A stretch of 64,000 nucleotides of DNA. Source: Bryobacteraceae bacterium (lineage in GTDB: Bacteria; Acidobacteriota; Terriglobia; Bryobacterales; Bryobacteraceae). Both the position numbers and the translations under genes were made by a program. Location of the stretch: NCBI GenBank assembly GCA_026129905.1, contig JAHCHE010000004.1:186001-250000 (forward strand), written 5' to 3'. Positions 30,738 through 45,476 of the stretch are shown here, piece by piece. Under the pieces are notes generated by a model, which saw nothing but the letters and a program-made list of their open reading frames with translations, made no database searches and had not been told where the DNA came from. Positions within the stretch are counted from its first letter, which is position 1, and each line of letters opens with the position of its first letter.

Positions 30738-31298
30738 TTGGAAAGTCTGGTCCCAAAAAGCCTGGCGACGCCCTTCCACCAGCTTGGCCAGGCGGACTTC
30801 GCCGAGATCGTGCAGTTGCGCGATCACGTGCTGGCTAGCCTCCCCCATCCCGATTGTTACGTCTCAGGACCGGACGAAGATGCCGTGATTCAGGCCCATC
30901 TGGGACAGGCCGGCGTGACGTTTGGCGCCCGAATCGGAAGCCGGCTGATCGCCTACGCTGCCCTGAGTCTGGACATCGACGACGCTCACCTCGACCCGGA
31001 GTTCCATCACGCCATCGTCGCCAGGAGCGTTAACGGAGATCTTGCCCGGGACCGCTGCGCCGTACTGGCGGTGGCCATGGTCCACGCCGATTTCAGAGGT
31101 CGCCATCTGCATCGCGAAGCGATCCGCCGACGCCTGCAATTTGCCCGCGCCAATGGCAGGTCCGACATCGTCGCCATGGTCTCCCCGCACAATGCGCCGT
31201 GCCTCCACAACCTCGTCGCTGAAGGCTTCCGAGTGCAAGATGTCATCGGGTTTCCCGACGGCCGCGAGCGCTACTTCCTACGAGGCAACCCCGCGTGA
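30738..31298 (+). CDS. GNAT-family N-acetyltransferase
   Basis: 186 residues with GNAT features: an N-terminal ADFAEIVQLRDHVLASLPHP helix, the central beta strands with GSRLIAYAALSLDI, VLAVAMVHADFRGRHLHREA as the acetyl-CoA pyrophosphate loop (RGRHLH in place of Q/RxxGxG/A), and a C-terminal NAPCLHNLVAEGFRVQDV matching the usual N.a..ly.k.GF block. The acceptor is unknown. TTG start at 30738. The stop overlaps the GTG of the deacetylase gene (GTGA), implying coupled translation. Confidence 0.8.
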   Translation: MESLVPKSLATPFHQLGQADFAEIVQLRDHVLASLPHPDCYVSGPDEDAVIQAHLGQAGVTFGARIGSRLIAYAALSLDIDDAHLDPEFHHAIVARSVNGDLARDRCAVLAVAMVHADFRGRHLHREAIRRRLQFARANGRSDIVAMVSPHNAPCLHNLVAEGFRVQDVIGFPDGRERYFLRGNPA

Positions 31299-32140
31299 CA
31301 AATCCCCCCTATCTGTGGCCGGAGGGCTTTTCCTGCGCCCTGTGCTTCTGCGTCGATGTGGATGCCGTCACGCCCATGATGTGGCGGCTTCGCGACAAAG
31401 GCGCCTATTCGCCCCGGGAAGTGGAACAGCGTAGCTTCGGATTGCGGCAGGGAGTCGACCGCATCCTTTCCATTCTGGCCGACCTGCGCATCCCCGCGAC
31501 GTTCTTTGTGCCTGGCTACATCGCCGAGCATCATCCCCGGCTGATAACCGAGATCGCCGGCCAGGGGCACGAGATCGGATTGCACGGCTACATCCATGAA
31601 GAGACCGAGGAGTTGGACGAGCGGGAGAATCGCGAGGTATTGAGGAAATCCATTGCCATCCTCGAGGACCGCGCCGGCCGCCGGCCTTCCGGCTACCGCT
31701 CCCCCAATTGGGGCATGACCGACTCTCTGCCCGCGCTGCTCCAGGAGCATGGAATTTTTTACGACAGCTCGCTGATGGGCTACGAGCATCCCTATACGTT
31801 TCGCGGCATCACCGAGTTGCCTGTGAGCTGGACCGCGAGCGACGCCACGTACTACTTCTACCTCGGCCGCGGCGATGACATCGGACCTCCCTGGCCCGCT
31901 CATCTGTTAGAGGACGCTTGGCGGGATGAGATCGCGGCCGCGCGGCGCTTCGCGAGCCTCCTCTGCCTCACCGTCCATCCGTGGATGTCCGGCCGGGGCG
32001 CCCGCGCCGTCGCCCTTGAGCGCCTTCTCCGGGAAGCCCGGGGCGATTCCTCCATCTGGCTTGCCAACTGCCTCGCTATCGCCGAATACCACCGTCAATC
32101 GCCCAATTGCGGCAAGTTTGACGTGCGCGGGCCGGAGTGA
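31295..32140 (+). CDS. polysaccharide deacetylase (NodB/PuuE-type)
   Basis: 281 residues. NodB homology motifs are CFCVDVDAVTP (motif 1 with DVD), FFVPGYIAEHHP, GHEIGLHGYIHEETEEL (motif 2 H..H), GYRSPNWGMT (motif 3 RSP), YDSSLMG, and LTVHPWMSGRG near the end. The overall form matches the PuuE/allantoinase-like deacetylases that remove acetyl or formyl groups from small amides as well as glycans. GTG at 31295 overlaps the GNAT stop, and the stop overlaps the next GTG, so the three genes are translated in series. An acetyltransferase followed by a deacetylase suggests a protect/deprotect step, which is an inference. Confidence 0.88.
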   Translation: MTNPPYLWPEGFSCALCFCVDVDAVTPMMWRLRDKGAYSPREVEQRSFGLRQGVDRILSILADLRIPATFFVPGYIAEHHPRLITEIAGQGHEIGLHGYIHEETEELDERENREVLRKSIAILEDRAGRRPSGYRSPNWGMTDSLPALLQEHGIFYDSSLMGYEHPYTFRGITELPVSWTASDATYYFYLGRGDDIGPPWPAHLLEDAWRDEIAAARRFASLLCLTVHPWMSGRGARAVALERLLREARGDSSIWLANCLAIAEYHRQSPNCGKFDVRGPE

Positions 32141-32988
32141 ATTCCATGACGCCGATTTTCGATGCCGCGCTTCAAAGCCCGCCGTTGTTCGCCCGCGAGT
32201 TTCACGAGCAAGGCTTCCTGATTGTCCCGAATGCGCTTTCCGCCGCGCAGGTTTCGGTTTTCAACCGCGCGGTGACCGACGACCTCGAGAACCATGGCGG
32301 CGAGTGGGTCAGGTTTGACGAATCGTTCCTTGAAACGCCCGATGTGATCTCCCGCACCGCCGACTTCGATTTCGCCATCGAGAATCCGGTCACCCTGGCG
32401 ATTCTGCGGAGCCTGATCGGCGAACTGATCACTTTCGAGGAGTTTGAGATCCTGATTCGCAATCCGACCGGGAAGGCGCAAGATCTGAAGGCTTGGCATC
32501 GCGACGCCACGCGTGACTACAACCGGCGCATGGAAATCGAGTATGTATCGGTGGTGTACTACCTGACCGATGTCAGCGAGACCGATCACTGCCTGAGCAT
32601 CGTTCCGGGGAGCCATTATCGTCGCGTGGACCTCCGGCCGGCCGACGTCGCGTCCGGTGAGGAGGTCGACGTTCTTGGTTCGGCGGGAACGGCCGTCATC
32701 TTCCACGGCCGTTGCATTCATGCGGGAAAGTTGAAAGCCGGGTCGAGGCAGCGGCGAACGCTCCACATCTACTACGCGCGCGCAGACCAGCCCCGGTATT
32801 CCGAGTGGACGGCAATCCCGCCTCGCCTGTACCAGAAGGCCGATCCAGCCCTGCCGCCGCTTCTTTACTCGAAATGGAACGCAAGCGTGGTGTTCGAAGG
32901 CGTGGGAAAGAAGCCCCGTAACCTCCCGCCGTCGATGTCGATCGCCGAGATGATTCGCGAAGTCCAGCGCCGGGCCAACGCGCGTTGA
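32137..32988 (+). CDS. phytanoyl-CoA dioxygenase (PhyH)-family Fe(II)/2-oxoglutarate oxygenase
   Basis: 283 residues. The facial triad is visible as H-x-D in WHRDATRDY and a distal His in RCIHAGKLKAGSRQRRTLHI, with the 2-oxoglutarate Arg in RQRR. FEEFEILIRNPTGKAQDLKA and YYLTDVSETDHCLSIVPGSH are typical PhyH core stretches. It likely hydroxylates a small molecule or a carrier-bound intermediate in the cytoplasm. GTG at 32137 overlaps the deacetylase stop; ATG at 32146 is the alternative. It is the last gene of the coupled GNAT-deacetylase-oxygenase set, opposite the CapK/PaaK-like ligase. Confidence 0.87.
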   Translation: MNSMTPIFDAALQSPPLFAREFHEQGFLIVPNALSAAQVSVFNRAVTDDLENHGGEWVRFDESFLETPDVISRTADFDFAIENPVTLAILRSLIGELITFEEFEILIRNPTGKAQDLKAWHRDATRDYNRRMEIEYVSVVYYLTDVSETDHCLSIVPGSHYRRVDLRPADVASGEEVDVLGSAGTAVIFHGRCIHAGKLKAGSRQRRTLHIYYARADQPRYSEWTAIPPRLYQKADPALPPLLYSKWNASVVFEGVGKKPRNLPPSMSIAEMIREVQRRANAR

Positions 32989-33446: not shown

Positions 33447-34436
33447 ATGTCCACAGGCGCGTCGCCGGCCGATACCGCGGTCCAAGATCCGATGCTGCAC
33501 CAGTTCGAGCTTCCTTTAACGGCCGTTTACTACCCCTTCGGGTTTCCGTTGCGCGTGCGGACGAATTCACTTGAAATTCTGGCCGCGGTCGAGGAAGCCT
33601 GGGGGGCGTTCACCAGTGAATTCCCGGCGGACCCTGCCGAATTCGCTATCGGCGTCACGGGGAACGGCTGCGAGATGCCGCCCTGGCCCTCCCATCGCGC
33701 GCGAGGGCACTTGCTGACGCTGATCGGCGATGCGCGTAATTTCCTGGTGTGCGACCTGGCGGCCTCCTACGCGTTCTGCTGGCTCACGCCGCCGGTTGCC
33801 CGCGATCTCGCGTACCTCCGTAAGTACTACACGGATCCGATCGGATACACGCTGGTGATGCACCGCCATCTCGCCCCGGTCCATGCCGCCTGCGTGGCGC
33901 GCAACGGACGCGGACTACTGTTGTGCGGCCAATCCGGCGCCGGCAAATCCTCACTCTCGTTCGCCTGCGCCAGGAGAGGCTGGACGTTCATCGCTGACGA
34001 CTTCAGCCATCTCGTGCGGGAGCGAAACGATCGGCGCGTACTCGGCAATTCCTTCGAGCTGCGATTCCGGGCTTCGGCAACCACGCTGTTTCCGGAACTC
34101 GAAGGAAGGACGGGCGTGCTTGACCGCGACGGCGAGGCGACGATCGAGGTGCGCACGAAAGAACTCGGGCATCTCCAGTGCGCCACGTCCGCAACCGTGG
34201 AGCACATCGTGTTTCTGAACCGCCGGCCGGGAGCGCGCCCGCGGTTTAACCCGATTTCGAAAGACACCGCCTTTCACGAACTCCAACCGGCGATCTTTTT
34301 CGGCGAAGACGGCGTTCGCGCGCGGCAGAAGGAGGAACTGCGCCGCCTTTTGTCGGCGGACATGCGCGAATTCACCTATGACGGCCTCGATGCGGCCGTT
34401 GACGCCCTGGAAGAATTGCTGGCGGAAGGGGGTTGA
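33447..34436 (+). CDS. HPr kinase/phosphorylase-like P-loop kinase
   Basis: 329 residues. The C-terminal half has an HprK-like core: HAACVARNGRGLLLCGQSGA with Walker A GQSGAGKSS, ARRGWTFIADDFSHLV with the acidic ADD, and later TVEHIVFLNRRPGARP. The N-terminal half is not the HprK regulatory domain. There is no HPr or PTS gene nearby, so classical sugar regulation is unlikely. Such stand-alone HprK-like kinases occur in peptide-modification clusters, for example the lasso peptide kinase of the paeninodin pathway. ATG at 33447 follows AGGGG by six bases; TTG at 33441 is an alternative. The stop at 34436 is two bases before the TonB receptor start. Confidence 0.82.
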   Translation: MSTGASPADTAVQDPMLHQFELPLTAVYYPFGFPLRVRTNSLEILAAVEEAWGAFTSEFPADPAEFAIGVTGNGCEMPPWPSHRARGHLLTLIGDARNFLVCDLAASYAFCWLTPPVARDLAYLRKYYTDPIGYTLVMHRHLAPVHAACVARNGRGLLLCGQSGAGKSSLSFACARRGWTFIADDFSHLVRERNDRRVLGNSFELRFRASATTLFPELEGRTGVLDRDGEATIEVRTKELGHLQCATSATVEHIVFLNRRPGARPRFNPISKDTAFHELQPAIFFGEDGVRARQKEELRRLLSADMREFTYDGLDAAVDALEELLAEGG

Positions 34437-34438
34437 CA

Positions 34439-37400
34439 ATGCGACTGATTTCGGCGCTACTTGCTTGCGCGGCTGCCGCGACGGCGCAGGTTTCGTCGGG
34501 GGTGCTGTTCGGCGACGTTCAAGACCAGTCGGGGGCGCTGGTCTCCGGCTGCCGGATCACCGCGACGCACAGAGGCACGGGATTCGCGCGGACGGCGGCT
34601 AGCGGATTGCTGGGCGAATACCGGATCGATGAACTGCCGCCGGGCTCCTACCGGGTGATGGTCGAGAAAGCCGGCTTCCGCACGCTCGTCATCGACGACG
34701 TGGCCGTTGAGGTGAACCAAAAGCGCCGGTTGGCCGCGGTGTTGACCGTCGGGGCCGAGCCCGAGCAGGTCACGGTAGTGGCGGAAGCTTCGCTGCTGCG
34801 GACCGGGGACGCTTCCGAAGGCCATCATCTGGAATACGCCACCACGCAGGCGCTTCCTCTTGCCGGACGGAACATCATTTCGCTGGCCACCATCGGGCCG
34901 GGCGCCGTCCCGCGGCAACTCGGCGGCTTTGTTCACGACGTGATCAACGATCTCCAGGCCGGCCGCGGCGAGGTGGCGCTGAATCCGCCGGTGAACGGCG
35001 CGCGTTCCACCATGAACGCCCACGTCATCGACGGCGCGTACAGCACCGACCGGAACACGTACGTCATCGCCACGACCCCGCCGCTTGAAAGCGTGCAGGA
35101 ATTCCGCATACAGACGGCCCTGGCGCCGGCCCAGGCGCCCCATGCCGGCGGCGCAGTTATCGACGTCGTAACCAAGTCAGGCGCCGTCGATTTCCACGGC
35201 AATGTCTTCGAATATTTCCGGAATGAGTCGATGGATGCACGGGGATTTTTCGATGACTTCCAGATGCCCCGCCCGATTTTCCGCCAGAACCAGTTCGGTG
35301 GGACGTTGGGCGGGCCGTTGCCCGGCGCCTCCACCTTCTTCTTCGCCACCTATGAGGGGCTGCGGGGGAAATCGGCGCGCTCCCGGCTCCACGTCATCCC
35401 GGACGCCGGCCTGCGGAGCGGTAATTTCGCCGGGCGGAGTCCGATTTTCGATCCGCTCGATGTAGACGTCAACGGGAACCGGCGGGCATTCGCGGACAAC
35501 CGCCTGCCGGCAAGCCGAATCGATCCGATCGCCTCCCGGTTTCTCGAGCGGTATCAGCCTCTGCCCAATCGAGCGTCGCCGGGTCCGAACTTCCTGGATG
35601 CGACCCCTAATACAGCCGGGCACGACAGCGTTTCGACGCGCGTTGACCGCGAATTAGGCGCCAACAGCCGCCTGTTCGCCCGATACACCATCAATGACGA
35701 GCGTCGCAACGCAGCCGGTTCGTTCCCGCAGCGGCCAACGTCGGAGCGGTTGCGAGCGCAGCAGGCGGCTGTCGGCTACACGCGCGCAGGCGCCAACTGG
35801 GTGAACGAGGCGCGCCTGGCCTTTACCCGGCTGCGCGTCTTCAACGTCCCCGAGAGCGCATTTGGCGCCAACGTGATCCGCGAACTGGGCATCGAAGGAG
35901 GACCGGACGATCCCTTCACGTACGGCCTGCCGTATTTCGCCGTCACGAATGTGGAACTGGTTACCGACTCGCCGACGCTGCCACAGGTTCAACGCGACAA
36001 TACCTGGTTTGCGTCCGACAGCTTCAGCCTTGTTCGCGGCCGGCATGCCGTGCAGTTCGGTTTCCAGTGGATCGGCTTTCAGCTCAATTACCTGCGTTCG
36101 CAATTTCCTCGCGGTCAGTACATTTATACCGGCGCGTTTACCGCCGATCCAGGCCGTTCGGACGTAAGCGGCGACGCCTTCGCCGACTTCCTCCTCGGTT
36201 TCCCCCAGACCACCCGGCGTTTCACTGGCGACGCCCAGGCTTACCTGCGGAACAACAATTACGCGGTTTATCTCCAGGAAGATCTGCAAATCTCGCCGTC
36301 ATTGATGTTGAATGCAGGCGTGCGTTACGAATATTTCTCGCCGTTCAGCGAGACCCGCGGCAATCTGTTGAACCTCGACTACTCCGCGTTGCCCGCCCCG
36401 CCGGAACTTCGGCGCGTGAGCCGCGCGGCGGAGCCTGACCGGAACAATATCGCGCCCCGGCTTGGCTTGGCGTGGCGCCTGCCGGGGATCGTGTTTCGCG
36501 CGGGCTATGGCCTGTACTACAGTCCCGAGATCGCCGCGGAGACGTACGATCTGGCGCGGAACAACCAGCGCGGCGAGATCAACCAGGTGACCGGACCGGC
36601 GCCCACGCTGACGACGCGAAACGGTTTCCCCCAAACCGCTACGCTGGGCCTGCCTACCTACTTCGGTCTTGACCCCTGGGCGCGCACGCCGTATGTGCAA
36701 CAGTGGACTGCCGGCATCCAGCGGCAGTTGCCGGGCGATATCCTGGCCGAAGCCGCATACGTGGGCACGAAGGGCACGCGACTGGGGCGGTTCCGCACCT
36801 TCAATACGCCGTTGCATGTCGAGACGGGCGAAAACCTCGCGCCGCGCCCCGGCGAATTGCAGTCGCTCCGGACGTTTCCGCAATTCGGCCCCCTGTTTCA
36901 GCGACAGCACATTTCCAATTCCATCTACCATTCCCTGCAACTCCGGGCGGAGAAACGGTTCCGGAACAGGTTATCGTTTCTGGCCAGTTTCGTCTGGGCG
37001 AAATCCATCGACGACGCCGATACGATCGTGCCAGGTCAGTACGACAGCTTTGGCGCGCAGGACGAACGGAACCTGCGCCTGGAGCGCGGACTGTCGTTCT
37101 TCGACGTGAGGCGGCGTTTCAGCGCGGCGTTCCTGTACCAACTTCCGCGGCCCGGCGTCCTGCGACCCGTTTTCTCGAACTGGGAGTTGAGCGGAATCGT
37201 CACCTTACAGGACGGAACGCCGCTAAATCCCGTCTATTTCATCCTGGATTTTGCGAATTCCGGCACGCCGAACCGGCCGGACGTCGTGCCCGGCCGGAAT
37301 GTGCGCCTGCCGCCGGATCAGCGCTCGATCGAGCAGTTCTTCAATCGGGAGGCCTTCTCGGCTCCGGCGCCGTTCACGTTCGGCAACGCGGGCCGGAACA

Positions 37401-37624
37401 TCCTGCCGGGACCCGGCAACAACGTTGTCGACCTCGCGCTCCGGCGTCTGTTCACGATTCGCGAGAACCACACGATCCAGTTGCGCGTGGAAGCCTTCAA
37501 CGCCTTCAATCGTCCCAACCTCGGCATCCCCGGACCTTACCCGGACTTCGGCCCGTTTTTCGGCCGGATTTTGGCTGCCGGAGAGCAGCGGCGTCTTCAG
37601 CTTGGTGCGCGTTACGATTTCTGA
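34439..37624 (+). CDS. TonB-dependent receptor with carboxypeptidase-regulatory N-terminal domain (Oar-like)
   Basis: About 1061 residues. A signal peptide (LISALLACAAAATAQ) is followed by a CarboxypepD_reg domain (GVLFGDVQDQSGALVSGC to VTVVAEASLL), a plug-like region (NPPVNGARSTMNAHVIDGA, GGAVIDVVTKSGAVDFHGN), and a long beta barrel ending in LQLGARYDF with the terminal Phe of outer-membrane proteins. No TonB box is obvious. This architecture is greatly expanded in Solibacter-type Acidobacteriota and is thought to import or anchor large substrates. ATG at 34439 directly follows the HPr-kinase-like stop behind GAAGGGGG, so the two genes are coupled. The kinase product or its peptide may relate to this receptor, an inference from context only. 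Confidence 0.92.
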   Translation: MRLISALLACAAAATAQVSSGVLFGDVQDQSGALVSGCRITATHRGTGFARTAASGLLGEYRIDELPPGSYRVMVEKAGFRTLVIDDVAVEVNQKRRLAAVLTVGAEPEQVTVVAEASLLRTGDASEGHHLEYATTQALPLAGRNIISLATIGPGAVPRQLGGFVHDVINDLQAGRGEVALNPPVNGARSTMNAHVIDGAYSTDRNTYVIATTPPLESVQEFRIQTALAPAQAPHAGGAVIDVVTKSGAVDFHGNVFEYFRNESMDARGFFDDFQMPRPIFRQNQFGGTLGGPLPGASTFFFATYEGLRGKSARSRLHVIPDAGLRSGNFAGRSPIFDPLDVDVNGNRRAFADNRLPASRIDPIASRFLERYQPLPNRASPGPNFLDATPNTAGHDSVSTRVDRELGANSRLFARYTINDERRNAAGSFPQRPTSERLRAQQAAVGYTRAGANWVNEARLAFTRLRVFNVPESAFGANVIRELGIEGGPDDPFTYGLPYFAVTNVELVTDSPTLPQVQRDNTWFASDSFSLVRGRHAVQFGFQWIGFQLNYLRSQFPRGQYIYTGAFTADPGRSDVSGDAFADFLLGFPQTTRRFTGDAQAYLRNNNYAVYLQEDLQISPSLMLNAGVRYEYFSPFSETRGNLLNLDYSALPAPPELRRVSRAAEPDRNNIAPRLGLAWRLPGIVFRAGYGLYYSPEIAAETYDLARNNQRGEINQVTGPAPTLTTRNGFPQTATLGLPTYFGLDPWARTPYVQQWTAGIQRQLPGDILAEAAYVGTKGTRLGRFRTFNTPLHVETGENLAPRPGELQSLRTFPQFGPLFQRQHISNSIYHSLQLRAEKRFRNRLSFLASFVWAKSIDDADTIVPGQYDSFGAQDERNLRLERGLSFFDVRRRFSAAFLYQLPRPGVLRPVFSNWELSGIVTLQDGTPLNPVYFILDFANSGTPNRPDVVPGRNVRLPPDQRSIEQFFNREAFSAPAPFTFGNAGRNILPGPGNNVVDLALRRLFTIRENHTIQLRVEAFNAFNRPNLGIPGPYPDFGPFFGRILAAGEQRRLQLGARYDF

Positions 37625-37694
37625 ACGCCATATCCACGGGGGCGCGCCGGACGCCACGCAAGCCCCGGGCGCATGGTCCGCCGGAGCGATTCGC

Positions 37695-40082
37695 GTGCCG
37701 CCCGCCGTTGCCGCGGCGCTCGACGCGCTGCGCTTCGACGCCGAGCCGGGCGCCCTACTCTCGCTCAACGACGGCGATTGGCGCCGGGCGCTCGCCTGGT
37801 GCGACCGCAATCAGCTTACCCTCGCCTTTTGGCGGACCGCCGGTTACGAAGCCTTTCCGGAGTGGGTTCGCGAGCGGCTCGGGCGCGACGCGCAAAAGAA
37901 TGAAGAGCGCTTTCGCCGGATTCGCCGCCTTTATGGCGACTTGCGCGGCCGGTTTCTTGCCTGCGGGCTCCAGCACCTGGCGCTGAAAGGATTCGCGCAG
38001 TGGCCGTATTTCACGGATAATCCCGCATCGCGGCCGCAGTACGACCTGGACCTGTTCTTCCCGGCGGACACCGTTCACCAGGCGCGCGACATCGTCGCGG
38101 ATCTCTCCTACGAACCGATCGGCAACCTTGAAGCGCTGCCGACCGACCACCTCCCGACGATGATTCGGAAGACGGGCTGGCAGTGGCGAGGCGATTTCTT
38201 CGATCCCGAGATTCCCGTGGCGATCGACTTGCATTTCCGGTTCTGGGACCGCGGCACGGAACGATTCGGTCCCGAGCGGCTGGACGCGTTTTGGGAACGC
38301 CGCGAGGAGCGCTCGTTCGACGGACTGGAGTTCGCTTCGCTGTGCGCCGACGACGCGCTCGGTTACGCCTGCTTGCATGCGCTACGCCACCTTCTCCGGG
38401 GCGACGCCCGGCCCGCGCACTTCTACGAAATCGGATGGTTTCTCCATCGCGAACACGGAGACTCGTTCTGGCGGAGGTGGAACGGCGCGCACGATCGCGA
38501 TCTGCGCCGGATCGAGGCGGTGGTCTTCGGCGTGGCGCGAGCTTGGTTCGGGAGCCGGCTTGCGCCCGCGGCCGGCGAAGCGGTGGAACAACTCCCGCCG
38601 AGTGTGAAGCAATGGCTGGAGCGCCGCGTCTACGCCCCAATCGAGTCGCCGTTCCACCCAAACAAAGAGGAACTTTGGCTCCACCTCGCGCTGGTCTCGT
38701 CGCGCTGGGACAAAGCCGCTATTGTTCGCCGCCGCCTTGCGCCGATGCGCCTTCCGCGGCCGTTCGACGCGGTCCACGTCGCCGACGATGATCTGACGTG
38801 GCGAATCCGTTTGCGTGCGCTATGGCGCTACGCCGTCCACGTGGTCTCGCGGTTGCTCCACCATGGCGGCGCGCTGGCTTCGCTGGGTCTGGGCGCTCCC
38901 CGCTGGTGGGCGGCAAGCGCCGGCCTGTCTTCCGCCTTCTGGGTCTTTTTCGTTTGCGCCGCGCTATTCAACTTCGGAGTCTTCGTCTTTTTCCTCCTCT
39001 ACAACCTGTATCTGCTCGACCGCGGCTTCGCGGAGGATTTCCTCGGCGTGGTGACGGCCGCCTTCACGGCGGGCAACATCGCCGGCAGCCTGATCGCGGG
39101 ATTCCTGGTGGCGCGAATCGGGCTGCGGCGAAGCCTGCTCCTTTGTTTCGTCTCGGTGGGCCTGGTTTCCGCCGTCCGGGTCGTGGCGGTGAGCGAGGCC
39201 TCTCTGGTGGCGTCCGCCTTTCTCGGCGGCGTCTGCGCGTGCTTCTGGTTCGTCGGGGTGCCTCTGGCGGTGGCCCAATTGACGAATGATCGAAATCGGC
39301 CGCTCGCGTTCAGCCTGACGATGGGCTCGGGTATCGCCGTCGGCGCGCTCGCCGGGGTGATCGGGGGAAAACTGCCGGCGCTCCTCGGTTCTAAGGAAAG
39401 CGCGCTGCTGGTTGGCTGCGCGCTGGCGCTGACCGCCGCGGCGCCGGCGCTGAAACTGCGCCTGGGCGCCGCCGCAACCGCGCGCCGCGGGTTCACTCGC
39501 CACCCCTTCCTCATCCGGTTTCTCGTGGCCCTGGCGCTCTGGAGCTTTGCCACCGGGGCGTTCAATCCGTTCTTCAACGTCTACTTCTCGCGCTCGTTCG
39601 GCTTGGGCGTCGAGCGGATCGGCTGGGTGTTCTCCGCTTCTCAGGCGGCCCAGGTTGGCGCGATCCTGCTGGCGCCGCTTCTATTCCGGCGCTTCGGCCT
39701 GGCCCCGGCCGTCGCCATGACGCAGGCGGCCACGGCGTGCGCGATGGCCGCGCTAGGATTTGCGCCTGCGGCCGCGGCGGCAGCTTTCCTTTACCTCGGA
39801 TACATGGCTTTCCAGAACATGGGCGAGCCCGGCATGTACAGCCTGCTGATGAACCGTCTGCCCCCGGCTGACCGTACGGGCGCGGCGGCGCTGAATTTCC
39901 TGGTGCTGTTCGGCGCGCATGCGCTAGCCGCGTCTTTGGCTGGCCTGACGATTGCACGATTCGGCTACCCGACGCTGCTGGTTGCGGCGGCCGTGATCGC
40001 TCTCATCGCGGCGCTGTTGGTGCGCGCGCTGCTTCACGAGCCATCAGGGCCGTCATCCTCTCCCGATACAAAGCCAGCGTGA
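37695..40082 (+). CDS. fusion of a nucleotidyltransferase-like domain (PF14907-type) and an MFS transporter
   Basis: About 795 residues. The first 370 resemble the uncharacterised nucleotidyltransferase family: HLALKGFAQWPYFTDNPASR followed by PQYDLDLFFP (the LKG...R..DxD pattern), and VAIDLHFRFWDRG. From about residue 400 the protein is a 12-helix major facilitator (FGVFVFFLLYNLYLLDRGF, TAGNIAGSLIAGFLVARIGL, YLGYMAFQNMGEPGMYSLLM). I chose GTG at 37695 because GGAG lies eight bases upstream and the sequence after it is domain-like; GTG at 37605, overlapping the receptor gene, is the alternative. It is likely in the same transcript as the kinase and receptor. The last 80 bases overlap the convergent glycosyltransferase gene. 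Confidence 0.8.
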   Translation: MPPAVAAALDALRFDAEPGALLSLNDGDWRRALAWCDRNQLTLAFWRTAGYEAFPEWVRERLGRDAQKNEERFRRIRRLYGDLRGRFLACGLQHLALKGFAQWPYFTDNPASRPQYDLDLFFPADTVHQARDIVADLSYEPIGNLEALPTDHLPTMIRKTGWQWRGDFFDPEIPVAIDLHFRFWDRGTERFGPERLDAFWERREERSFDGLEFASLCADDALGYACLHALRHLLRGDARPAHFYEIGWFLHREHGDSFWRRWNGAHDRDLRRIEAVVFGVARAWFGSRLAPAAGEAVEQLPPSVKQWLERRVYAPIESPFHPNKEELWLHLALVSSRWDKAAIVRRRLAPMRLPRPFDAVHVADDDLTWRIRLRALWRYAVHVVSRLLHHGGALASLGLGAPRWWAASAGLSSAFWVFFVCAALFNFGVFVFFLLYNLYLLDRGFAEDFLGVVTAAFTAGNIAGSLIAGFLVARIGLRRSLLLCFVSVGLVSAVRVVAVSEASLVASAFLGGVCACFWFVGVPLAVAQLTNDRNRPLAFSLTMGSGIAVGALAGVIGGKLPALLGSKESALLVGCALALTAAAPALKLRLGAAATARRGFTRHPFLIRFLVALALWSFATGAFNPFFNVYFSRSFGLGVERIGWVFSASQAAQVGAILLAPLLFRRFGLAPAVAMTQAATACAMAALGFAPAAAAAAFLYLGYMAFQNMGEPGMYSLLMNRLPPADRTGAAALNFLVLFGAHALAASLAGLTIARFGYPTLLVAAAVIALIAALLVRALLHEPSGPSSSPDTKPA

Positions 40083-41118
40083 AGTTGGATTCCCAGGCAG
40101 AGCGCGCGTTTTGGGCAACGGCTTCGAGGCGGGCAGGGTTTCGCGCCGTTTCCAGAAGCCTGGAGGCCAGGGCCTCGGCGGTTCGCGGGTGCGCGAGAAA
40201 TCCTGTCTTCCCATCCTCGATCAGCTCCGGAATGCCTCCCGATGCGAAGGCCACCACCGGGACGCCGGCGGAGAAGGCCTCGATCACGACGCGGCCCAAC
40301 GCCTCCTCGCCCGTCGAGGGCACGGCGAGAACGTCTATCGTGGCGAGCGCCTGGGCGATATCGTCGCGCCATCCGGTGAACTCCACCGGCAGCGCTCGGG
40401 CGGCCGCGCGAACTTCGCGCTCATACGCGGGGTCGGCCATGTTGGCGGATCCGATCACGACATATCGGCATTCGGGCATCTCGGCCGCGATCAACCTTGC
40501 CGCGCGCACAAACTCGAGTTGTCCTTTCTCCGGCGCGATGCGTCCGAGCACGCCGATCACTGGCGGACCGGTCCGTGCGCGGGCGCGGCGCAAGTCGCCG
40601 GCGCCGCTCGGCACGACGCACACGCGCTCGGCCGGAACGCCGTTACGCAAGCTGCCCGCGACGAATCGCGACACCGCCACAACGGCCGCGCGCCGCTTGC
40701 GTAGCGCCCAGCAGGCCAGCCGGCGCGCGACCGGCTGCCCGATAGCGCTGTGCGCGTGAAACAGGACCGCCGTCCGCCGCCGGCCAAGCGCGACGGCGGG
40801 CAGAAGCCGCGGCCCGTTCACATGGACCAGGTCCACTTCGTATCGTTCGCACAGGTGATCGATCCGCGCCGCCAGCCGCCAGACCCGCGCGGCGTACCGA
40901 ACCATATCCCCCAAGGTTTTCCGGCCCGGCGTGTAGGGTCCCGCGTCAAGCGCGACCACTTCGGCGCCCGCCGCCTCGAGACGCGCCGCGAGCGGTCCTT
41001 CTCCCGGCACGGCCGCCACCGCGCGCCATCCTCGCTCCATCGCCGCCGGGATGAGGTCGAGCAGACACAGTTGCGCGCCGCCCAGTTCGCCGAACTGATC
41101 GAGGAACAGGACCGTCAT
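40003..41118 (-). CDS. GT4-family glycosyltransferase
   Basis: 371 residues with a GT-B fold. N-terminal LFLDQFGELGGAQLCLLDLI is the start typical of GT4. The middle has HVNGPRLLPAVALGRR, and the C-terminal donor domain has VIGVLGRIAPEKGQLEFVRA, VEFTGWRDDI, and the E-x7-E block GEEALGRVVIEAFSAGVPVV. ATG at 41118 overlaps the O-antigen ligase stop (ATGA). The frame continues upstream to 41790, but that part is antisense-like. It is the last of three minus-strand genes (Wzz, ligase, GT4) for surface polysaccharide. Confidence 0.9.
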   Translation of the reverse strand: MTVLFLDQFGELGGAQLCLLDLIPAAMERGWRAVAAVPGEGPLAARLEAAGAEVVALDAGPYTPGRKTLGDMVRYAARVWRLAARIDHLCERYEVDLVHVNGPRLLPAVALGRRRTAVLFHAHSAIGQPVARRLACWALRKRRAAVVAVSRFVAGSLRNGVPAERVCVVPSGAGDLRRARARTGPPVIGVLGRIAPEKGQLEFVRAARLIAAEMPECRYVVIGSANMADPAYEREVRAAARALPVEFTGWRDDIAQALATIDVLAVPSTGEEALGRVVIEAFSAGVPVVAFASGGIPELIEDGKTGFLAHPRTAEALASRLLETARNPARLEAVAQNARSAWESNFTLALYRERMTALMAREAARAPTAPR

Positions 41119-42503
41119 TCCGCCGCGGCGTCCGCCCGGCGCACCGCTGTCGCCAACACCCAGAAATACAGCGGCAGCACGCGCCAGTACGTCAGCAGGT
41201 CTCCGGACAGCATCTGGACCAGTTCGCCGCACCAGAAGCAGAAGATCCACACGCCGAAGAACGACGCCTGCGCGTCCCGGCTTCGCGCGGCGTTGCGCGC
41301 CTTCGCCAGCAGCGCCACGTTCAGCGCCAGGAAAGCCGTCACGCCGAGGACTCCCGTCTCCGCCAGCAGCGTCAGGTACATGTTGTCCACGATAAGCGGC
41401 CGCCCCGCCACGTCCGAATACGGCAGCGTCTTGTAGCCGACGCCCGTGAGCGCATACCAGGGATTCGCTGTCAGCAGCTCGTACACGGCGCTCCAGCTCA
41501 CCAACCGTCCCGACAGGATCGCGTTCGTTTGCGAAAGGAACTGCTCCACCGACAGCGCCAGGCGCAAGCTGTAGATCTCGCCATAGGCCGGGAACGCCAG
41601 GTAGACGATCAGCGCGCCGGCCGCCAACGACACGACAACGATGAGCAGCCATCGCGCCAGCGGAAATACGCCCCGCCGCATATACGCCAGCGCAACCAGC
41701 GCCGCCGCCAGCGCCGCCAGCGAGGCGCGCGAATACGAAAACACCAGGGCCGTGGAAAACACGGCGCCGCCCACAAGCAGCGCGGGCCACGACAGCAGCC
41801 GCGCCTGCCGTGGCAGCGTCGCCGTCACCGCGATCATCACCAGAAAGAAGACACAGAAGTTACCGAGCGTGCTCGCCTCATAGAAAAGCCCCTGGGCTCG
41901 TCGAAAGACGCCGCTCATCAGCCAGACGTATTGCGGACCGTATCCGGCCGGAGCGGGGAACTGGAAGTAGAAGTCGACGCACGCGAAGGCGGCGGCCGCC
42001 ATCGCGACGCCGTACAGCCAGCGCGCGCCTCGCGCCGCATCCACACGCTGCCCGGCGCCCGGTCCGTGCGCCACGAAGAAATAGATGTAGACCGCGATGC
42101 CGAACAACAGCGTGCGCGCCAGGCTCCCCGCGGCGACGGCGGGTCCCGAGAGCGCCAGCGCGCTGGCGACGCTCGCCAGCAGAAGGGCAAAGAAAATCGT
42201 CAATGCCTGCGCCAGAGGATCGGCGCGGAGCTTCCATTCGCGCAGCCGCAGCAGTCCGATTCCGAAGCCCACTGCGGCGAACGCAAGCGCCGGATGCGGT
42301 CCCGCGTTCCCCAGCCCGATCGGCAGCGGTGGAAGAAGCAGCGCGGCGGCAATGAATGCAACCAGCCAGTGGTTGGCGCCGTTCAGCAGCCACCAACCAA
42401 GCAACGCCATCAACGGCGCCGACGCCATCGCGGCGCGCGCAACGGCGTTGGGCATCAACGCCGTCAGTGCGGCGTAGAGCCCGATGGGGACGGCAGCTCG
42501 CAT
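41115..42503 (-). CDS. O-antigen ligase/polymerase-like membrane protein
   Basis: 462 residues, 11-12 predicted helices, with the Wzy_C/WaaL region around RLVSWSAVYELLTANPWYAL, TGVGYKTLPYSDV and VDNMYLTLLAETGVLGVTAF. The long periplasmic loop with the GVGYKT and DNMYL segments is the catalytic part of this family, which joins polymerised glycan to its acceptor or polymerises repeats. It lies between Wzz (five bases before the ATG) and the GT4 gene (ATGA overlap), so the three are one transcript. A second ligase-type gene is at 43644 on the other strand. Confidence 0.87.
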   Translation of the reverse strand: MRAAVPIGLYAALTALMPNAVARAAMASAPLMALLGWWLLNGANHWLVAFIAAALLLPPLPIGLGNAGPHPALAFAAVGFGIGLLRLREWKLRADPLAQALTIFFALLLASVASALALSGPAVAAGSLARTLLFGIAVYIYFFVAHGPGAGQRVDAARGARWLYGVAMAAAAFACVDFYFQFPAPAGYGPQYVWLMSGVFRRAQGLFYEASTLGNFCVFFLVMIAVTATLPRQARLLSWPALLVGGAVFSTALVFSYSRASLAALAAALVALAYMRRGVFPLARWLLIVVVSLAAGALIVYLAFPAYGEIYSLRLALSVEQFLSQTNAILSGRLVSWSAVYELLTANPWYALTGVGYKTLPYSDVAGRPLIVDNMYLTLLAETGVLGVTAFLALNVALLAKARNAARSRDAQASFFGVWIFCFWCGELVQMLSGDLLTYWRVLPLYFWVLATAVRRADAAAE

Positions 42504-42508
42504 ACGGA

Positions 42509-43618
42509 CTACCGCCGCAGGTTGAAGCTCAACGTCAGGTAGACCATCGACGCGAGAAAGGCGACGCCGATCGCGACGATCAGATTCAGCGCCGTTCTCG
42601 GTTCACTGGGTCGTTGCGGCACGATCCCCGGATCGACGACGCGAAGCCGTTCGCCCCCGAGACCGACCGATGAGGTCAGGTTTTCCGCCCGCGCGGCGGC
42701 TGCGTCATACCGATCAAGGGCGATCGTGAGCTGTTCCTCCGCCGCGTCCAATCGGCCAATCCTCACGCCCAACAGCCGGTCCTTCTCGCCAATCGCCCGT
42801 TCGATATCGCGCAACGCGGCTTCGAGTTCCCGCGACCGCGCTCGATGCGACGAACCTTCCGCCGCGTAAAATTCCGCGTCGCGCCGGGGTTCCCCTCCTG
42901 CCTGCGCCGCTTTCGCTCGCGTCTCGAACTCGGCGGCGGAGGCCTGCGCTTCCGCGATGTTGCGCCGCATGCGCTGCTGAAGCTCCACCAGCGAGTTGAT
43001 TTCCTCCCGCAGCGTCTCCACCGGCTCGGCGGCGATAAGCTTAGCCCACGCACCCCTCGCCTGTTCGACATCCGCGCGCGCGTCGTCGCGCTGGCGGCGA
43101 GTATCCTTAATCAGGTCCTGGCCCGCCTCCCGTGTGGCGGCCGCGCTGAGCTTCACCGTCTCCTCCGCCACGAACTGCGCCATCGCCTGGGCTTCTTTTG
43201 GATCGCGAAGCGTCACGCCGATTTCGAGTACTTTCGTGTCGCGCACTTTGGAGACGCTCAGAATCCGGCGCTTGAGAACCTCCACCGGTCGCCCGCCCGA
43301 AGGATCGAACATGTGGAACTTTTCCAGCGCCCGCAGAAACAGGCTGTCGCTGGAGGCGAGGCGCTCGTACGTCCGCAGCGATTCCAGGTAGACCGGGCTC
43401 ACCGCGGTGAACGCCCGCGGATCGGTCCCTGCCGGCGGTTCAATCAACACGCTGGCGGTGGCGGTGTAGCGGTTGGGCATCAGCAGGCTTGCGATCAGAG
43501 CCAAGGCTCCCGCGGCGCCGCAGGCGACGGCAACTACCGCCCAGCGTCTGCGAATATAGAGAAGATAATCGGCCGCGTCGAAGCGCGGCGCGATCGCGGC
43601 AGTCTCTTCCCGAAGCAT
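42509..43618 (-). CDS. Wzz/GumC-type polysaccharide chain-length determinant
   Basis: 369 residues. It has an N-terminal cytoplasmic YLLYIRRRWAVVAVACGAAG entering a first transmembrane helix, then a periplasmic domain beginning YTATASVLIEPPAGTDPRAF, a long coiled coil (about residues 160-310, rich in RAEQ), and a second helix after the Pro-rich VDPGIVPQRPSEPRTALNLI motif. This is the standard polysaccharide co-polymerase form without a fused tyrosine kinase. It sets glycan chain length with a Wzy-type polymerase. Its ATG is preceded by GAGG, and it is only 25 bases from the divergent gene at 43644. Confidence 0.9.
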   Translation of the reverse strand: MLREETAAIAPRFDAADYLLYIRRRWAVVAVACGAAGALALIASLLMPNRYTATASVLIEPPAGTDPRAFTAVSPVYLESLRTYERLASSDSLFLRALEKFHMFDPSGGRPVEVLKRRILSVSKVRDTKVLEIGVTLRDPKEAQAMAQFVAEETVKLSAAATREAGQDLIKDTRRQRDDARADVEQARGAWAKLIAAEPVETLREEINSLVELQQRMRRNIAEAQASAAEFETRAKAAQAGGEPRRDAEFYAAEGSSHRARSRELEAALRDIERAIGEKDRLLGVRIGRLDAAEEQLTIALDRYDAAAARAENLTSSVGLGGERLRVVDPGIVPQRPSEPRTALNLIVAIGVAFLASMVYLTLSFNLRR

Positions 43619-43643
43619 GGGGTCGCCTCAACGAAGGATGTAA

Positions 43644-45476
43644 ATGGTATCGCTCCTGCTGCCCCTGGTGGCGGCGCTGGTCCCAATCTTAACACTTCCG
43701 CGCATCCTGTTCTATTTCGACGTCACGCCGAAAGTGGCTGTACTGCTGATCGCCGCGGCGGTCGCGGCATGTTTCGCGCGGACCAATGCCGCCGCGCTCG
43801 GAGAGTTCACGCGGACTCGGGAAGGCCGGCGGCTCACCGTTGTATTCGCGGCGCTCGCCTTCGCCGCTATCGTTTCCACGGCGGCTTCCACCAACCCCGC
43901 GCTGTCGTTGAGCGGCGGGAACTGGCGGCGGTTCGGCCTGGTAACGGAGCTGGCCCTGCTGGCGTTCATCCTTCTCGCGACGGCCGGAATCGCCGCGCGT
44001 CCCGCGGCTCTTCGAACCACTCTGCGGGTCGTGGCGATGAGCGGCGCCCTCGTCGCCCTGTACGCCGTACTCCAGTACTTCGGCTGGGACCCTCTGTTGC
44101 CGCCGGCGGCGTATCACGTCGGAGAAGGCTTTTGGACGATCGTTCGCCCGCCGGGAACAATCGGGCACGCCAACTACCTGGGAACGTACCTGGTATTTGT
44201 CGTTTTCCTCGCCGGCTCGCTTCTATGGTCGGAGCCGTCGAGGCTCTGGAAATTCGCCGGCGGCGCGGCCGCGGTCATTGGCGCATTCGCCATCGTTCTC
44301 ACGGGCGCGCGCTCCGCCATCCTCGGCGCCGCGGCGGGAGCGATTTTCCTCGCCGTCCGGAGGAGGCCGCGACCGCGGGTGCTCTTGTTCGGCGCTGTCG
44401 CGTTCACCGTGGCGCTCGGCGGCTTCTATTACTCCCCTTGGGGACAGAAGCTGCGCAGCCGGACGCGCTGGTATCGTGAAGACCCCGTAGGCGGCGCACG
44501 TCTCCTGCTGTGGCGCGACTCGCTTCGCATGGCCACGGCGCAGCCGCTTTCTGGCCGGGGACCCGAGACGTTCGCCACCGAGTTTCCGCGCTTTCAATCG
44601 CTGGAGCTGGCGCGCGCGTATCCGGACTTCTACCACGAGTCGCCGCACAACATTTTTCTCGATGAATTGACGGGGAAGGGAATTCTCGGACTGATTCCAT
44701 TCCTGGCTTTTACGGGGTTAGCGGGATGGGCCACCCTCGGCCCCCGTTGCCGTGACGCTCCGTTTCTGGCTGCCGCCTTCCTCGCCGCGCTCGTCAGCCT
44801 GCAATTCAACGCATTTGTGCTGACTACCGCACTCTTTTTCTACCTGACTGGCGCGCTGTTGATCGCTGGACGCGCCGATCCGGCCGGCGAGCGGATTGAA
44901 AGCTCGTCCCGGCGACCGGCCGCGGTTGCGGCGGTCCTCGGACTGCCGCTGGCCGTTCTGTTCGTCGTGTACGCGATACGGCTGTGCGCCGCCGACGTGG
45001 CGCTCCAGCGCGTTCGAGGGCTGGTGGATGCGGGCGACGCCATCGGCGCGTCCAACGCCTACGCGTCCGCAATCCGCTGGCAGCCGCCCGGCGTCAGCTC
45101 GGACCTTTATTACTCGCGCGCCATGTCGACGATTGTGCGGCGCCAGCGGGACCTGATGGCCGCGGTAAAGGCCTGGCAGGAAGCGGTGCAGGCCGGCATC
45201 CGCGCCACCGCCAAGGCCGAGGACCGCCACAATGCCTTCTACAACTTGGCCACGCTCCACGGCATGGTGAACAACCCGGTGGACGCCGAGCGCAGCCTTC
45301 GCGGCGCCATCGAGGCCGCGCCCAACTGGTACAAACCCCGCTGGACGCTCGCCCAGGTGCTGAAAGTGCGCGGCCAACTCGAAGAAGCCCGGCAGCAGGC
45401 CCGTGCAGCCCTCGAACGCGGCGGCGACAAACATCCCGAAGTGGTCGAAACTCTCCGGGACCTCCACGATAAATGA
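43644..45476 (+). CDS. O-antigen ligase-family protein with C-terminal TPR domain
   Basis: 610 residues. About 12 helices span residues 1-440 with the Wzy_C signature RLLLWRDSLRMATAQPLSGR, GPETFATEFP and HESPHNIFLDELTGKGILGL. The C-terminal 150 residues are TPR-like (AFYNLATLHGMVNNPVDAER, RSLRGAIEAAPNWYKPRWTL). TPR-tailed ligases occur in several phyla; some transfer glycans to proteins (PglL-like), some act in exopolysaccharide export. ATG at 43644 has AAGGA upstream. With only 25 bases to the divergent Wzz gene, promoters must lie within coding DNA. Confidence 0.88.
   Translation: MVSLLLPLVAALVPILTLPRILFYFDVTPKVAVLLIAAAVAACFARTNAAALGEFTRTREGRRLTVVFAALAFAAIVSTAASTNPALSLSGGNWRRFGLVTELALLAFILLATAGIAARPAALRTTLRVVAMSGALVALYAVLQYFGWDPLLPPAAYHVGEGFWTIVRPPGTIGHANYLGTYLVFVVFLAGSLLWSEPSRLWKFAGGAAAVIGAFAIVLTGARSAILGAAAGAIFLAVRRRPRPRVLLFGAVAFTVALGGFYYSPWGQKLRSRTRWYREDPVGGARLLLWRDSLRMATAQPLSGRGPETFATEFPRFQSLELARAYPDFYHESPHNIFLDELTGKGILGLIPFLAFTGLAGWATLGPRCRDAPFLAAAFLAALVSLQFNAFVLTTALFFYLTGALLIAGRADPAGERIESSSRRPAAVAAVLGLPLAVLFVVYAIRLCAADVALQRVRGLVDAGDAIGASNAYASAIRWQPPGVSSDLYYSRAMSTIVRRQRDLMAAVKAWQEAVQAGIRATAKAEDRHNAFYNLATLHGMVNNPVDAERSLRGAIEAAPNWYKPRWTLAQVLKVRGQLEEARQQARAALERGGDKHPEVVETLRDLHDK

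Follow-up and report, generated by a model that had tools for sequence, protein, structure and literature searches.

Three plus-strand genes encoding an HprK-like kinase, a TonB-dependent receptor and a nucleotidyltransferase (NTase)-transporter fusion follow one another in the 64,000-nucleotide Bryobacteraceae stretch analyzed here (the window, Table 1). What do such proteins act upon together? The original prediction took them for a possible peptide modification and transport module, while allowing that their arrangement would differ from that of lasso peptide clusters and might serve a peptide or lipid yet unknown.

A conserved three-gene operon

The kinase frame, from an ATG at 33447 to its stop at 34436, contains the P-loop GQSGAGKSS, and PF07475 scores 34.3 bits against a Pfam cut-off of 33.3, confirming the predicted HprK-like kinase and its Walker A motif. 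The receptor ATG at 34439 lies two bases past this stop, as had been read from the sequence, and the Oar-like protein comprises a CarboxypepD_reg domain and a PF25183 barrel (Pfam). The third frame is open from a TTG at 37251 and ends at 40082; we prefer a GTG at 37605 as its start, with a GTG at 37695 as the alternative. Here, Pfam located PF14907 (97.3 bits, residues 56-316) and MFS_1 (83.3 bits, residues 449-730), and both domains are present in 19/19 fusions of an alignment comprising the window protein and 18 of 19 further fusions, in agreement with the proposed joining of a PF14907-type NTase to an MFS protein.

Table 1. Genes of the module and its surroundings in the window
Feature	Position	Strand	Basis
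GNAT-like gene, below cut-off	30738-31298	+	Pfam/NCBIfam
Polysaccharide deacetylase	31295-32140	+	Pfam/NCBIfam
PhyH dioxygenase	32137-32988	+	Pfam/NCBIfam
HprK/PEPCK-superfamily kinase, 329 aa	33447..34436	+	Pfam/NCBIfam, alignment, AlphaFold model, fold matches
Oar-like TonB-dependent receptor, the module's dedicated ortholog	34439..37624	+	Pfam, receptor clade
PF14907 NTase-MFS transporter fusion	37605..40082	+	Pfam, alignment, model; start uncertain
GT4-type glycosyltransferase	40003..41118	-	Pfam; recurrent neighbor, cluster c4 in 20 loci
Wzy/O-antigen-ligase-domain polymerase-like protein	41115..42503	-	PF04932 49.2 bits
Wzz-like chain-length determinant	42509..43618	-	PF02706 25.8 bits (cut-off 25.5); cluster c6 in 18 loci
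Second Wzy/O-antigen-ligase-like protein, TPR-like repeats	43644..45476	+	PF04932 68.5 bits; cluster c7 in 14 loci

The kinase was found in 43 of 121 genomes of the window's family and the NTase in 42, every one of them a kinase carrier (Fisher p 6.7e-32; this and the Fisher value below ignore relatedness, and related genomes are not independent). The NTase search scored at most eight candidates per genome and another candidate scoring at most five, so that either gene may have escaped detection in some genomes. Both genes share a contig in 33 of the 42 genomes, where they lie within 6 kb, and fragmented MAGs lower such linkage counts. The order kinase, receptor, NTase-MFS is shared by 14 of 41 family loci, the window included, and is seen in one more locus whose receptor was called in two pieces; in nine of the 41, the kinase is followed by an NTase with no fused MFS and no receptor between them (the L101 NTase is cut by a contig end). 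Two genomes, G003 and G101, contributed two loci each. A 4-bp overlap is common to 17 kinase junctions, 10 with the receptor and seven with the NTase, as judged from mechanical ORF calls, and junctions inside the operon mostly overlap or nearly touch, with a few gaps of 40-153 bp. Taken together, the three genes are confirmed as a real, conserved operon: their order recurs and kinase and NTase co-occur in other genomes, the point on which the original prediction had staked itself. Named strains that carry the module include Terracidiphilus gabretensis S55, Granulicella aggregans M8UP14 and Acidobacteriaceae bacterium KBS 96.

The receptor is specific to the module. Fifteen in-module receptors, that of the window included, form one clade with support 1.0, in a tree that includes 12 chosen named loci and excludes receptors shorter than 950 or longer than 1350 aa (among them L084, L097, L102 and L109). 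The other 14 are 55-61% identical to the window's receptor, against at most 34% for six of its own paralogs; a separate comparison put the best own paralog at 37%. Oar genes are abundant, the query matching 136 genome places, yet the in-module receptors are of one clade, and we rejected a placement beside the kinase by chance. The kinase tree mixes genomic contexts to some degree and was taken as a guide only. A role in phage defense was likewise rejected, as PADLOC returned no match for the three module proteins.

Catalytic residues and fold matches

Putative catalytic residues of both enzymes are conserved. Among 36 of 38 kinases that were aligned, His-146 and Lys-167 are kept in 36/36, Asp-184 in 34/36 and Asp-185 in 33/36. 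The fusions have Lys-128, Gly-129, Arg-143, Asp-147 and Asp-149 of the NTase invariant in 19/19, and position 208 is Asp or Glu in 19/19. AlphaFold models of the kinase and the fusion reached pLDDT values of 93.7 and 86.6, respectively. The kinase resembles HprK/P in its C-terminal domain, which matches the HprK fold (1ko7, Z 14.4, rmsd 2.3, 131 residues), but differs from it in that the whole chain matches the PEPCK fold (1xkv, Z 16.5, 277 residues, rmsd 5.2). It scores 47.5 bits with TIGR04352 (HprK-related kinase A), below the curated cut-off of 200, and all 36 kinase members match this model at E <= 0.001. Among the best structural matches of the MFS half is the glucose-6-phosphate transporter SLC37A4 (Z 40.0, rmsd 2.7, 361 residues), with sialin (38.9) and SPNS2 (38.7) scoring close to it. 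Foldseek/VIA lists for the whole fusion hold MFS-type transporters alone, the MFS half filling the list and the NTase fold being barely probed, and a sequence search of the PDB returned no solved homolog of the fusion.

Genes surrounding the module

The three genes upstream of the module (30738..32988) are joined by 4-bp overlaps and fall in no recurrent cluster of family loci; they may or may not be part of it. The gap upstream of the kinase measures 66-298 bp in 18 of 19 measured loci and 452 bp in the window. Apart from shadows of coding genes, no short ORF recurs in the region preceding the kinase: conserved short ORFs near the kinase appear to be shadows of a glycosyltransferase or of the kinase's own N-terminus, and those shared in intergenic gaps stem only from a conserved DNA element. 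This element is absent upstream of the window kinase, and its two one-mismatch matches in 64 kb compare with 1.6 expected.

Genes typical of ribosomally synthesized peptide (RiPP) pathways are not linked to the module. PqqD (PF05402) gave 42 matches in 29 of the 43 carriers and none in 14, and none of these lies near the kinase, the only one sharing its contig being 4.5 Mb away. Transglutaminase (PF13471) gave 15 matches in 14 of the 43 carriers, all of them away from the kinase contigs, and no Asn-synthase-like cyclase occurs among the 20 Pfam-scanned window proteins (23.5-56.1 kb). The PqqD profile, which a divergent RRE could escape, detected no discrete RRE linked to the kinase. On contigs other than the window's, the same genome does have loci in which PqqD accompanies further HprK-like or PF14907 genes. 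The neighborhood check suggested at the outset, for a short ORF, PqqD or a transglutaminase-like protein in relatives, thus yielded neither a linked PqqD or transglutaminase nor a recurrent short ORF upstream of the kinase, and we rejected membership in a lasso or other RiPP cluster. A peptide-modification role is therefore unsupported, and what stands of the predicted modification and transport module is the conserved three-gene arrangement, together with its hedge that this arrangement would be a different one.

We compared the module to characterized systems that pair such enzymes. According to PMC9266682, one serine of pseudomycoidin is acted on first by the kinase PsmK and then by the NTase PsmN, lasso kinases have catalytic H-K-D-D residues, and it is an open question whether PsmN is a glycosyltransferase or a nucleotidyltransferase. 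The module shares with the paeninodin and pseudomycoidin clusters (PadeK/PsmK, PsmN) an HprK-like H-K-D-D kinase and an NTase-annotated protein in one cluster, the residue correspondence being read from placement relative to the P-loop and the DD pair rather than from an aligned lasso kinase. It differs from them in having no linked PqqD (B1) or transglutaminase (B2), no cyclase among the 20 window proteins scanned and no precursor found upstream of the kinase, in the fusion of its NTase to an MFS protein, and in the TonB receptor inside the operon. Clusters for linear polyphosphorylated peptides (LPP), as described in PMC13381572, likewise contain an HprK-like kinase and an uncharacterized NTP transferase but no macrocyclase. 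Their discrete RRE, SpI-type peptidase, precursor and MsbA-like transporter, in contrast, were not seen among the 20 window proteins scanned, where an MFS protein is found instead.

Exopolysaccharide-type genes (40003-45476) set in where the fusion ends (Pfam), a neighborhood that the original prediction missed along with the co-occurrence of Wzy and the module. Of the 121 genomes, 36 have the adjacent Wzy, and all but one of these, 35, have the kinase (Fisher p 1.5e-21); in these 35 draft assemblies it shares a contig with the kinase or NTase in 24 and lies on another contig in 11, and eight of the 43 kinase genomes have no Wzy of this type. Wzy, Wzz or sugar-transferase clusters occur in 21 of the 36 family loci in which a kinase was called, a count that excludes the window and the fusion-side contigs L097 and L112 and rests on a crude, GC3-based gene caller that called no kinase in L104 and L107. 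A GT4 cluster (c2) is found in 28 of the 36, in 21 of them divergent and lying upstream of the kinase, either next to it or one gene removed. Relatives' loci also carry a MurJ-type flippase and a Bac_transf sugar transferase (PF02397); neither an initiating sugar transferase nor a flippase was seen among the Pfam-scanned window proteins, 27 of 46 selected window ORFs lying outside that scan. The module is thus adjoined by Wzy, Wzz (barely over its cut-off) and a glycosyltransferase, as in Wzx/Wzy-dependent exopolysaccharide loci, but in titles and abstract beginnings of open-licence papers we found no kinase/NTase-MFS/Oar operon described for such loci.

The analysis also covered 80 named loci, the best 80 of 113 matches to one short peptide pattern, which have limited taxonomic reach and share genomes with the 40 family loci, so that the two sets are not independent. 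Exopolysaccharide-machinery clusters (Wzy, Wzz, Wza, Wzi, Wzx or sugar transferase) are present in 47/80 and machinery or a glycosyltransferase in 59/80, many Acidobacteriaceae loci lying near Wza/Wzz/Wzi/Wzx genes. Neither machinery nor a clustered glycosyltransferase was found in 21, some of them short stretches; in others the order is receptor, kinase, NTase, and the neighbors are two-component and cytochrome c genes. B12-radical-SAM genes in 20 of the 80 loci, often with methyltransferases and an amidohydrolase, suggest other products, and 15 loci have no NTase in the stretch examined.

A candidate tailoring and transport arm

It is quite possible, and the reading that we tentatively adopt, that the kinase-NTase pair tailors an exopolysaccharide intermediate or partner, with the fused MFS protein exporting the product and Oar acting at the outer membrane. 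The three genes would then form the tailoring and transport arm of a Terriglobia exopolysaccharide (or glycoconjugate) pathway. The HprK/PEPCK-type kinase would phosphorylate a hydroxyl of an acceptor made by that pathway, which could be a saccharide, an intermediate linked to a lipid or some small partner molecule, and the PF14907 domain may next add a nucleotidyl or glycosyl(-phosphate) group at the same site, by analogy to PsmK and PsmN in pseudomycoidin. The MFS half would carry the product over the inner membrane, to be handled by the dedicated Oar receptor at the outer membrane.

The pair could also tailor a peptide or secreted protein of the paeninodin-type lasso or LPP-like kind, encoded by an unlinked or missed gene and exported by MFS and Oar. 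The characterized kinase-NTase systems considered here do act on peptide serines (PMC9266682 and PMC13381572), and the kinase keeps the H-K-D-D residues of lasso kinases, but we consider this unlikely given the 43 carriers with no PqqD near the kinase, the kinase contigs free of transglutaminase, the short upstream gaps with no recurrent ORF, and operon junctions most of which overlap or nearly touch.

TonB receptors usually import, and the receptor and MFS half might accordingly take up a scavenged phosphorylated or glycosylated compound that the kinase and NTase process, with the polysaccharide genes adjoining for supply. The match to a glucose-6-phosphate transporter would fit such a role but says little, as MFS folds are all alike, with sialin and SPNS2 close behind; the nine loci with neither fused MFS nor intervening receptor, and a near-complete co-occurrence with the polymerase that points to synthesis, make import rather improbable. 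We regard as very improbable that the kinase is regulatory and phosphorylates HPr or another protein controlling exopolysaccharide synthesis. Its structure and sequence are akin to HPr kinase, and there are rhizobial papers in which hprK occurs together with ChvI or exopolysaccharide. However, TIGR00679, the HPr kinase model, scores 32.4 bits, far under its cut-off of 240 (NCBIfam), and the constant partner of the kinase is an enzyme-transporter fusion, not a regulator. HPr (PF00381) has no match in 35 of the 43 carrier genomes, and its matches in the other eight, the window genome among them, lie in frames of 439-1244 aa, never on the kinase contig. HPr regulation was rejected from this distribution of HPr, and an HPr-kinase function is unlikely. 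HPr is absent near the kinase, as remarked on early, and the sole match in the window genome lies in a 1057-aa frame on another contig.

Returning to exopolysaccharide tailoring, the module travels with genes for surface sugar polymers, which suggests that an enzyme pair familiar from the tailoring of peptide natural products is reused in sugar-coat synthesis by soil acidobacteria. The enzyme pair itself is known; its present setting was not found described in titles and abstract beginnings of the open-licence literature. A more far-reaching proposal, which we find somewhat unlikely, is that kinase and PF14907 protein constitute a general phospho-tailoring cassette beyond RiPPs, modifying a Terriglobia exopolysaccharide or lipid-linked saccharide, with one NTase-MFS polypeptide joining synthesis to transport and a co-evolved Oar exporting or sensing the product. 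If true, this would represent a new route for placing phosphate-linked groups onto a bacterial surface polymer. A conserved non-RiPP system beside a polymer locus, present in named strains, offers a second way into the unsettled NTase chemistry and would assign functions to conserved genes of soil acidobacteria.

Gene order and conservation of the module

The original prediction placed an HprK-like kinase, an Oar-like TonB receptor and a nucleotidyltransferase (NTase)-MFS fusion in three consecutive genes, with the receptor gene beginning right behind the kinase gene. Open reading frame analysis and Pfam confirmed both the order and the junction. The fusion probably starts within the 3' end of the receptor gene. 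Just upstream of the module (window positions 30738-32988), GNAT-like, polysaccharide deacetylase and PhyH genes follow each other with end-to-start overlaps; the deacetylase scores 87 bits against an XrtA-system model, under its cut-off, and some Acidobacteriaceae loci have PhyH close to the kinase as well.

Module and neighboring genes in the window
Feature	Position or length	Strand	Basis or remark
Kinase, receptor and NTase-MFS genes, consecutive	33447-40082	+	sequence and Pfam
Kinase	329 aa	+	first gene of module
Oar-like TonB-dependent receptor	starts two bases past kinase stop	+	second gene
PF14907 NTase fused to MFS transporter	candidate starts GTG 37605 or 37695	+	third gene
GT4 glycosyltransferase, Wzy-like protein, Wzz-like chain-length protein	directly after fusion	-	Pfam
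Second Wzy-like protein	after Wzz-like gene	+	Pfam

We compared the module to 121 genomes of the window's family, whose relatives appear in public records under the names Bryobacterales or Acidobacteriaceae. The kinase is present in 43 genomes (window included) and the NTase in at least 42, all of which also carry the kinase (Fisher p 6.7e-32, for related and thus not independent genomes). Both genes are located on one contig in 33 of these 42 genomes, with their starts never more than 6.0 kb apart. In 41 family loci, read from crude gene calls and with several loci at contig ends, we found the order kinase, TonB receptor, NTase-MFS in 14 and in one more with the TonB gene in two pieces; kinase and NTase-MFS in three; kinase and NTase without MFS in nine (one truncated at a contig end); kinase and TonB in three; the kinase alone in seven; and no called kinase in four. 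The same 4-bp overlap is found at 17 kinase junctions. The shared contigs and the recurring order together indicate that homologues of the module genes do travel together in other genomes. A phylum-wide profile search of 396 genomes located the kinase in at least 29; the window's class accounts for 25 of these, its own genome counted. Locus L183 bears a Rhodanobacteraceae label but has a gene order like that of the Granulicella locus L185, probably because of a binning error.

The module has its own dedicated receptor. The Oar-like query matches 136 places in the 8.57-Mb genome carrying the window, the best paralog at 37%. In a tree of 950-1350 aa receptors (a range excluding, among others, those of L084, L097, L102 and L109) with 12 chosen named loci, the 15 receptors whose genes lie between kinase and NTase, including that of the window, group in a single clade (support 1.0). 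The 14 others share 55-61% identity with the window's receptor, compared with at most 34% for six own-genome paralogs. In Acidobacteriaceae loci, an Oar gene is found upstream of the kinase instead: among the best 80 of 113 named loci (from genomes partly shared with the family set), 16 have TonB, kinase and NTase or NTase-MFS in this order (one has its NTase split in two by the gene calls) and one TonB and kinase only. Eight such Acidobacteriaceae receptors (seven encoded immediately upstream of the kinase) fall into a clade separate from the in-module receptors.

Structure and catalytic residues of the kinase and the fusion

In Pfam, PF07475 alone matches the kinase above cut-off (34.3 vs 33.3 bits); in NCBIfam, all matches lie far under their cut-offs (HprK_rel_A, 47.5 of 200; HPr kinase, 32.4 of 240). 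Structural comparison of the confident AlphaFold model (mean pLDDT 93.7) matched its C-terminal half to HprK 1ko7 (Z 14.4; 131 residues at rmsd 2.3) and the full-length chain to PEP carboxykinase (PEPCK) 1xkv (Z 16.5, 277 of 329 residues, rmsd 5.2). The predicted fold thus places the enzyme in the HprK/PEPCK superfamily, with an N-terminal half that looks closer to PEPCK than to HprK. His-146 and Lys-167 are invariant in an alignment of 36 kinases, and Asp-184 and Asp-185 are kept in 34 and 33, respectively. Judged by position around the P-loop and the Asp pair, these residues are the counterparts of the His-Lys-Asp-Asp set in lasso-peptide kinases (excerpts of review PMC9266682). Position 230 is Glu in the window kinase but Lys in 33 of the 36. 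The window kinase is the only PF07475 match above cut-off in its genome, with one further match, on contig C46, below it. Tandem kinase pairs precede the TonB gene in L073 (9938-12119) and L100 (894-3033).

The predicted lack of a nearby HPr is borne out, as the HPr domain of the window's genome sits on another contig. An HPr domain had no match in 35 of the 43 kinase carriers, and in the remaining eight (the window's genome included) it lies inside 439-1244 aa frames on other contigs. The enzyme is most likely no HPr kinase.

Both domains are present in all 19 aligned fusions, which share Lys-128, Gly-129, Arg-143, Asp-147 and Asp-149 without exception and have an acidic residue (Asp or Glu) at position 208, a pattern we take to be that of an intact polymerase-beta-type NTase. 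A fold search with the fusion matched the MFS half and did not resolve the NTase half; the best matches, SLC37A4 (Z 40.0), sialin (38.9) and SPNS2 (38.7), score too closely for a substrate to be named from the fold. The Pfam profile detects four other PF14907 proteins in this genome, and a search with the whole fusion recovered none of them, which by sequence sets the fusion apart as a distinct branch.

Peptide and polysaccharide contexts

The kinase-NTase pair is already known from RiPPs. The suggested PqqD, transglutaminase or conserved short open reading frame beside the kinase did not materialize: PqqD has 42 hits spread over 29 of the 43 carriers, none of them close to the kinase (the single same-contig copy is 4.5 Mb away), transglutaminase PF13471 has 15 hits in 14 carriers, all on contigs other than the kinase's, and the gap upstream of the kinase holds no conserved frame in 19 loci measured. 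We therefore rejected a known RiPP locus type for the module. The excerpted account of linear polyphosphorylated peptide clusters (PMC13381572) indicates that the pair can operate without a cyclase; those clusters, however, carry an RRE, a peptidase and a precursor, none of which was seen at the window module. Elsewhere in the window's genome, other kinase-like or PF14907 genes stand in loci that do contain PqqD. One, L011 (contig C9, about 195.6-198.1 kb, at the contig end), is RiPP-like, with transglutaminase-like, PqqD, radical SAM and paralogous HprK-like kinase genes. Another, L012 (C46, 1-16 kb), combines an HprK-like kinase and PqqD with two PF14907 proteins, glycosyltransferases and a sulfotransferase, with no cyclase among eight of its proteins scanned, and perhaps connects the use of the pair in RiPPs with that in glycans.

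The polysaccharide genes following the fusion belong to clusters that recur around the module in relatives, whose loci also contain a sugar transferase (PF02397) and a MurJ-type flippase. In 21 of 36 kinase loci, a recurrent GT4 gene is divergent from the kinase, as its direct upstream neighbor or one gene further up. The window's Wzy is found in 36 of the 121 family genomes, 35 of them with the kinase (p 1.5e-21, genomes related), and the sole exception is 72% complete; it shares a contig with kinase or NTase in 24 of the 35 genomes having both, and is missing from eight of the 43 kinase genomes. Among the best 80 of 113 named loci, 47 contain exopolysaccharide machinery and 59 this or a glycosyltransferase; Acidobacteriaceae named loci have Wza, Wzz, Wzi and Wzx genes. 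Against an exopolysaccharide link count, among the same best 80 of 113, the 21 loci with neither, the 15 with no NTase within the locus sequence covered and the 20 with B12-binding radical SAM genes, frequently accompanied by methyltransferases and an amidohydrolase. Nine Acidobacteriaceae loci (L176, L177, L179, L182, L184, L187-L189 and L192) place the kinase near a conserved gene cluster comprising B12-radical SAM, two methyltransferases, an amidohydrolase and a GT28-like glycosyltransferase, several also with GTP cyclohydrolase II and PhyH, and eight with an NTase-cluster gene further along; from gene content, they look like unassigned natural-product loci.

In eight family loci (L078, L080, L082, L085, L094, L096, L109 and L111), a conserved TTTAC-N4-GTAA element precedes the called start of the kinase by 22-41 bp; in seven it is adjacent to the divergent GT4 gene as well, and TGTTATCA follows ~12 bp past it in six. 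Across ~0.7 Mb of family loci, the kinase strand has eight exact TTTAC matches, all upstream of the kinase at the element; named loci have four at the same site, and L151 has one elsewhere. This is probably a shared promoter or operator, and it is absent upstream of the window's kinase.

Proposed role of the module

The best precedent for the kinase-NTase pair, by analogy, is pseudomycoidin, where PsmK phosphorylates a serine and PsmN adds one or two hexoses to the residue so modified; the excerpted review (PMC9266682) leaves it open whether PsmN acts as a glycosyltransferase or as a nucleotidyltransferase. We found no description in the open-licence literature of embedding in a Wzy-type locus, of the NTase-MFS fusion or of a dedicated Oar receptor. 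The data show the gene order, the co-occurrence, the retained catalytic residues and the dedicated receptor; which acceptor and donor are used and which way transport runs is inferred. We propose a role in an exopolysaccharide pathway: in the same two-step logic, the kinase and then the NTase would act on an acceptor of this pathway, the MFS half would export the product, and the Oar receptor would act at the outer membrane.
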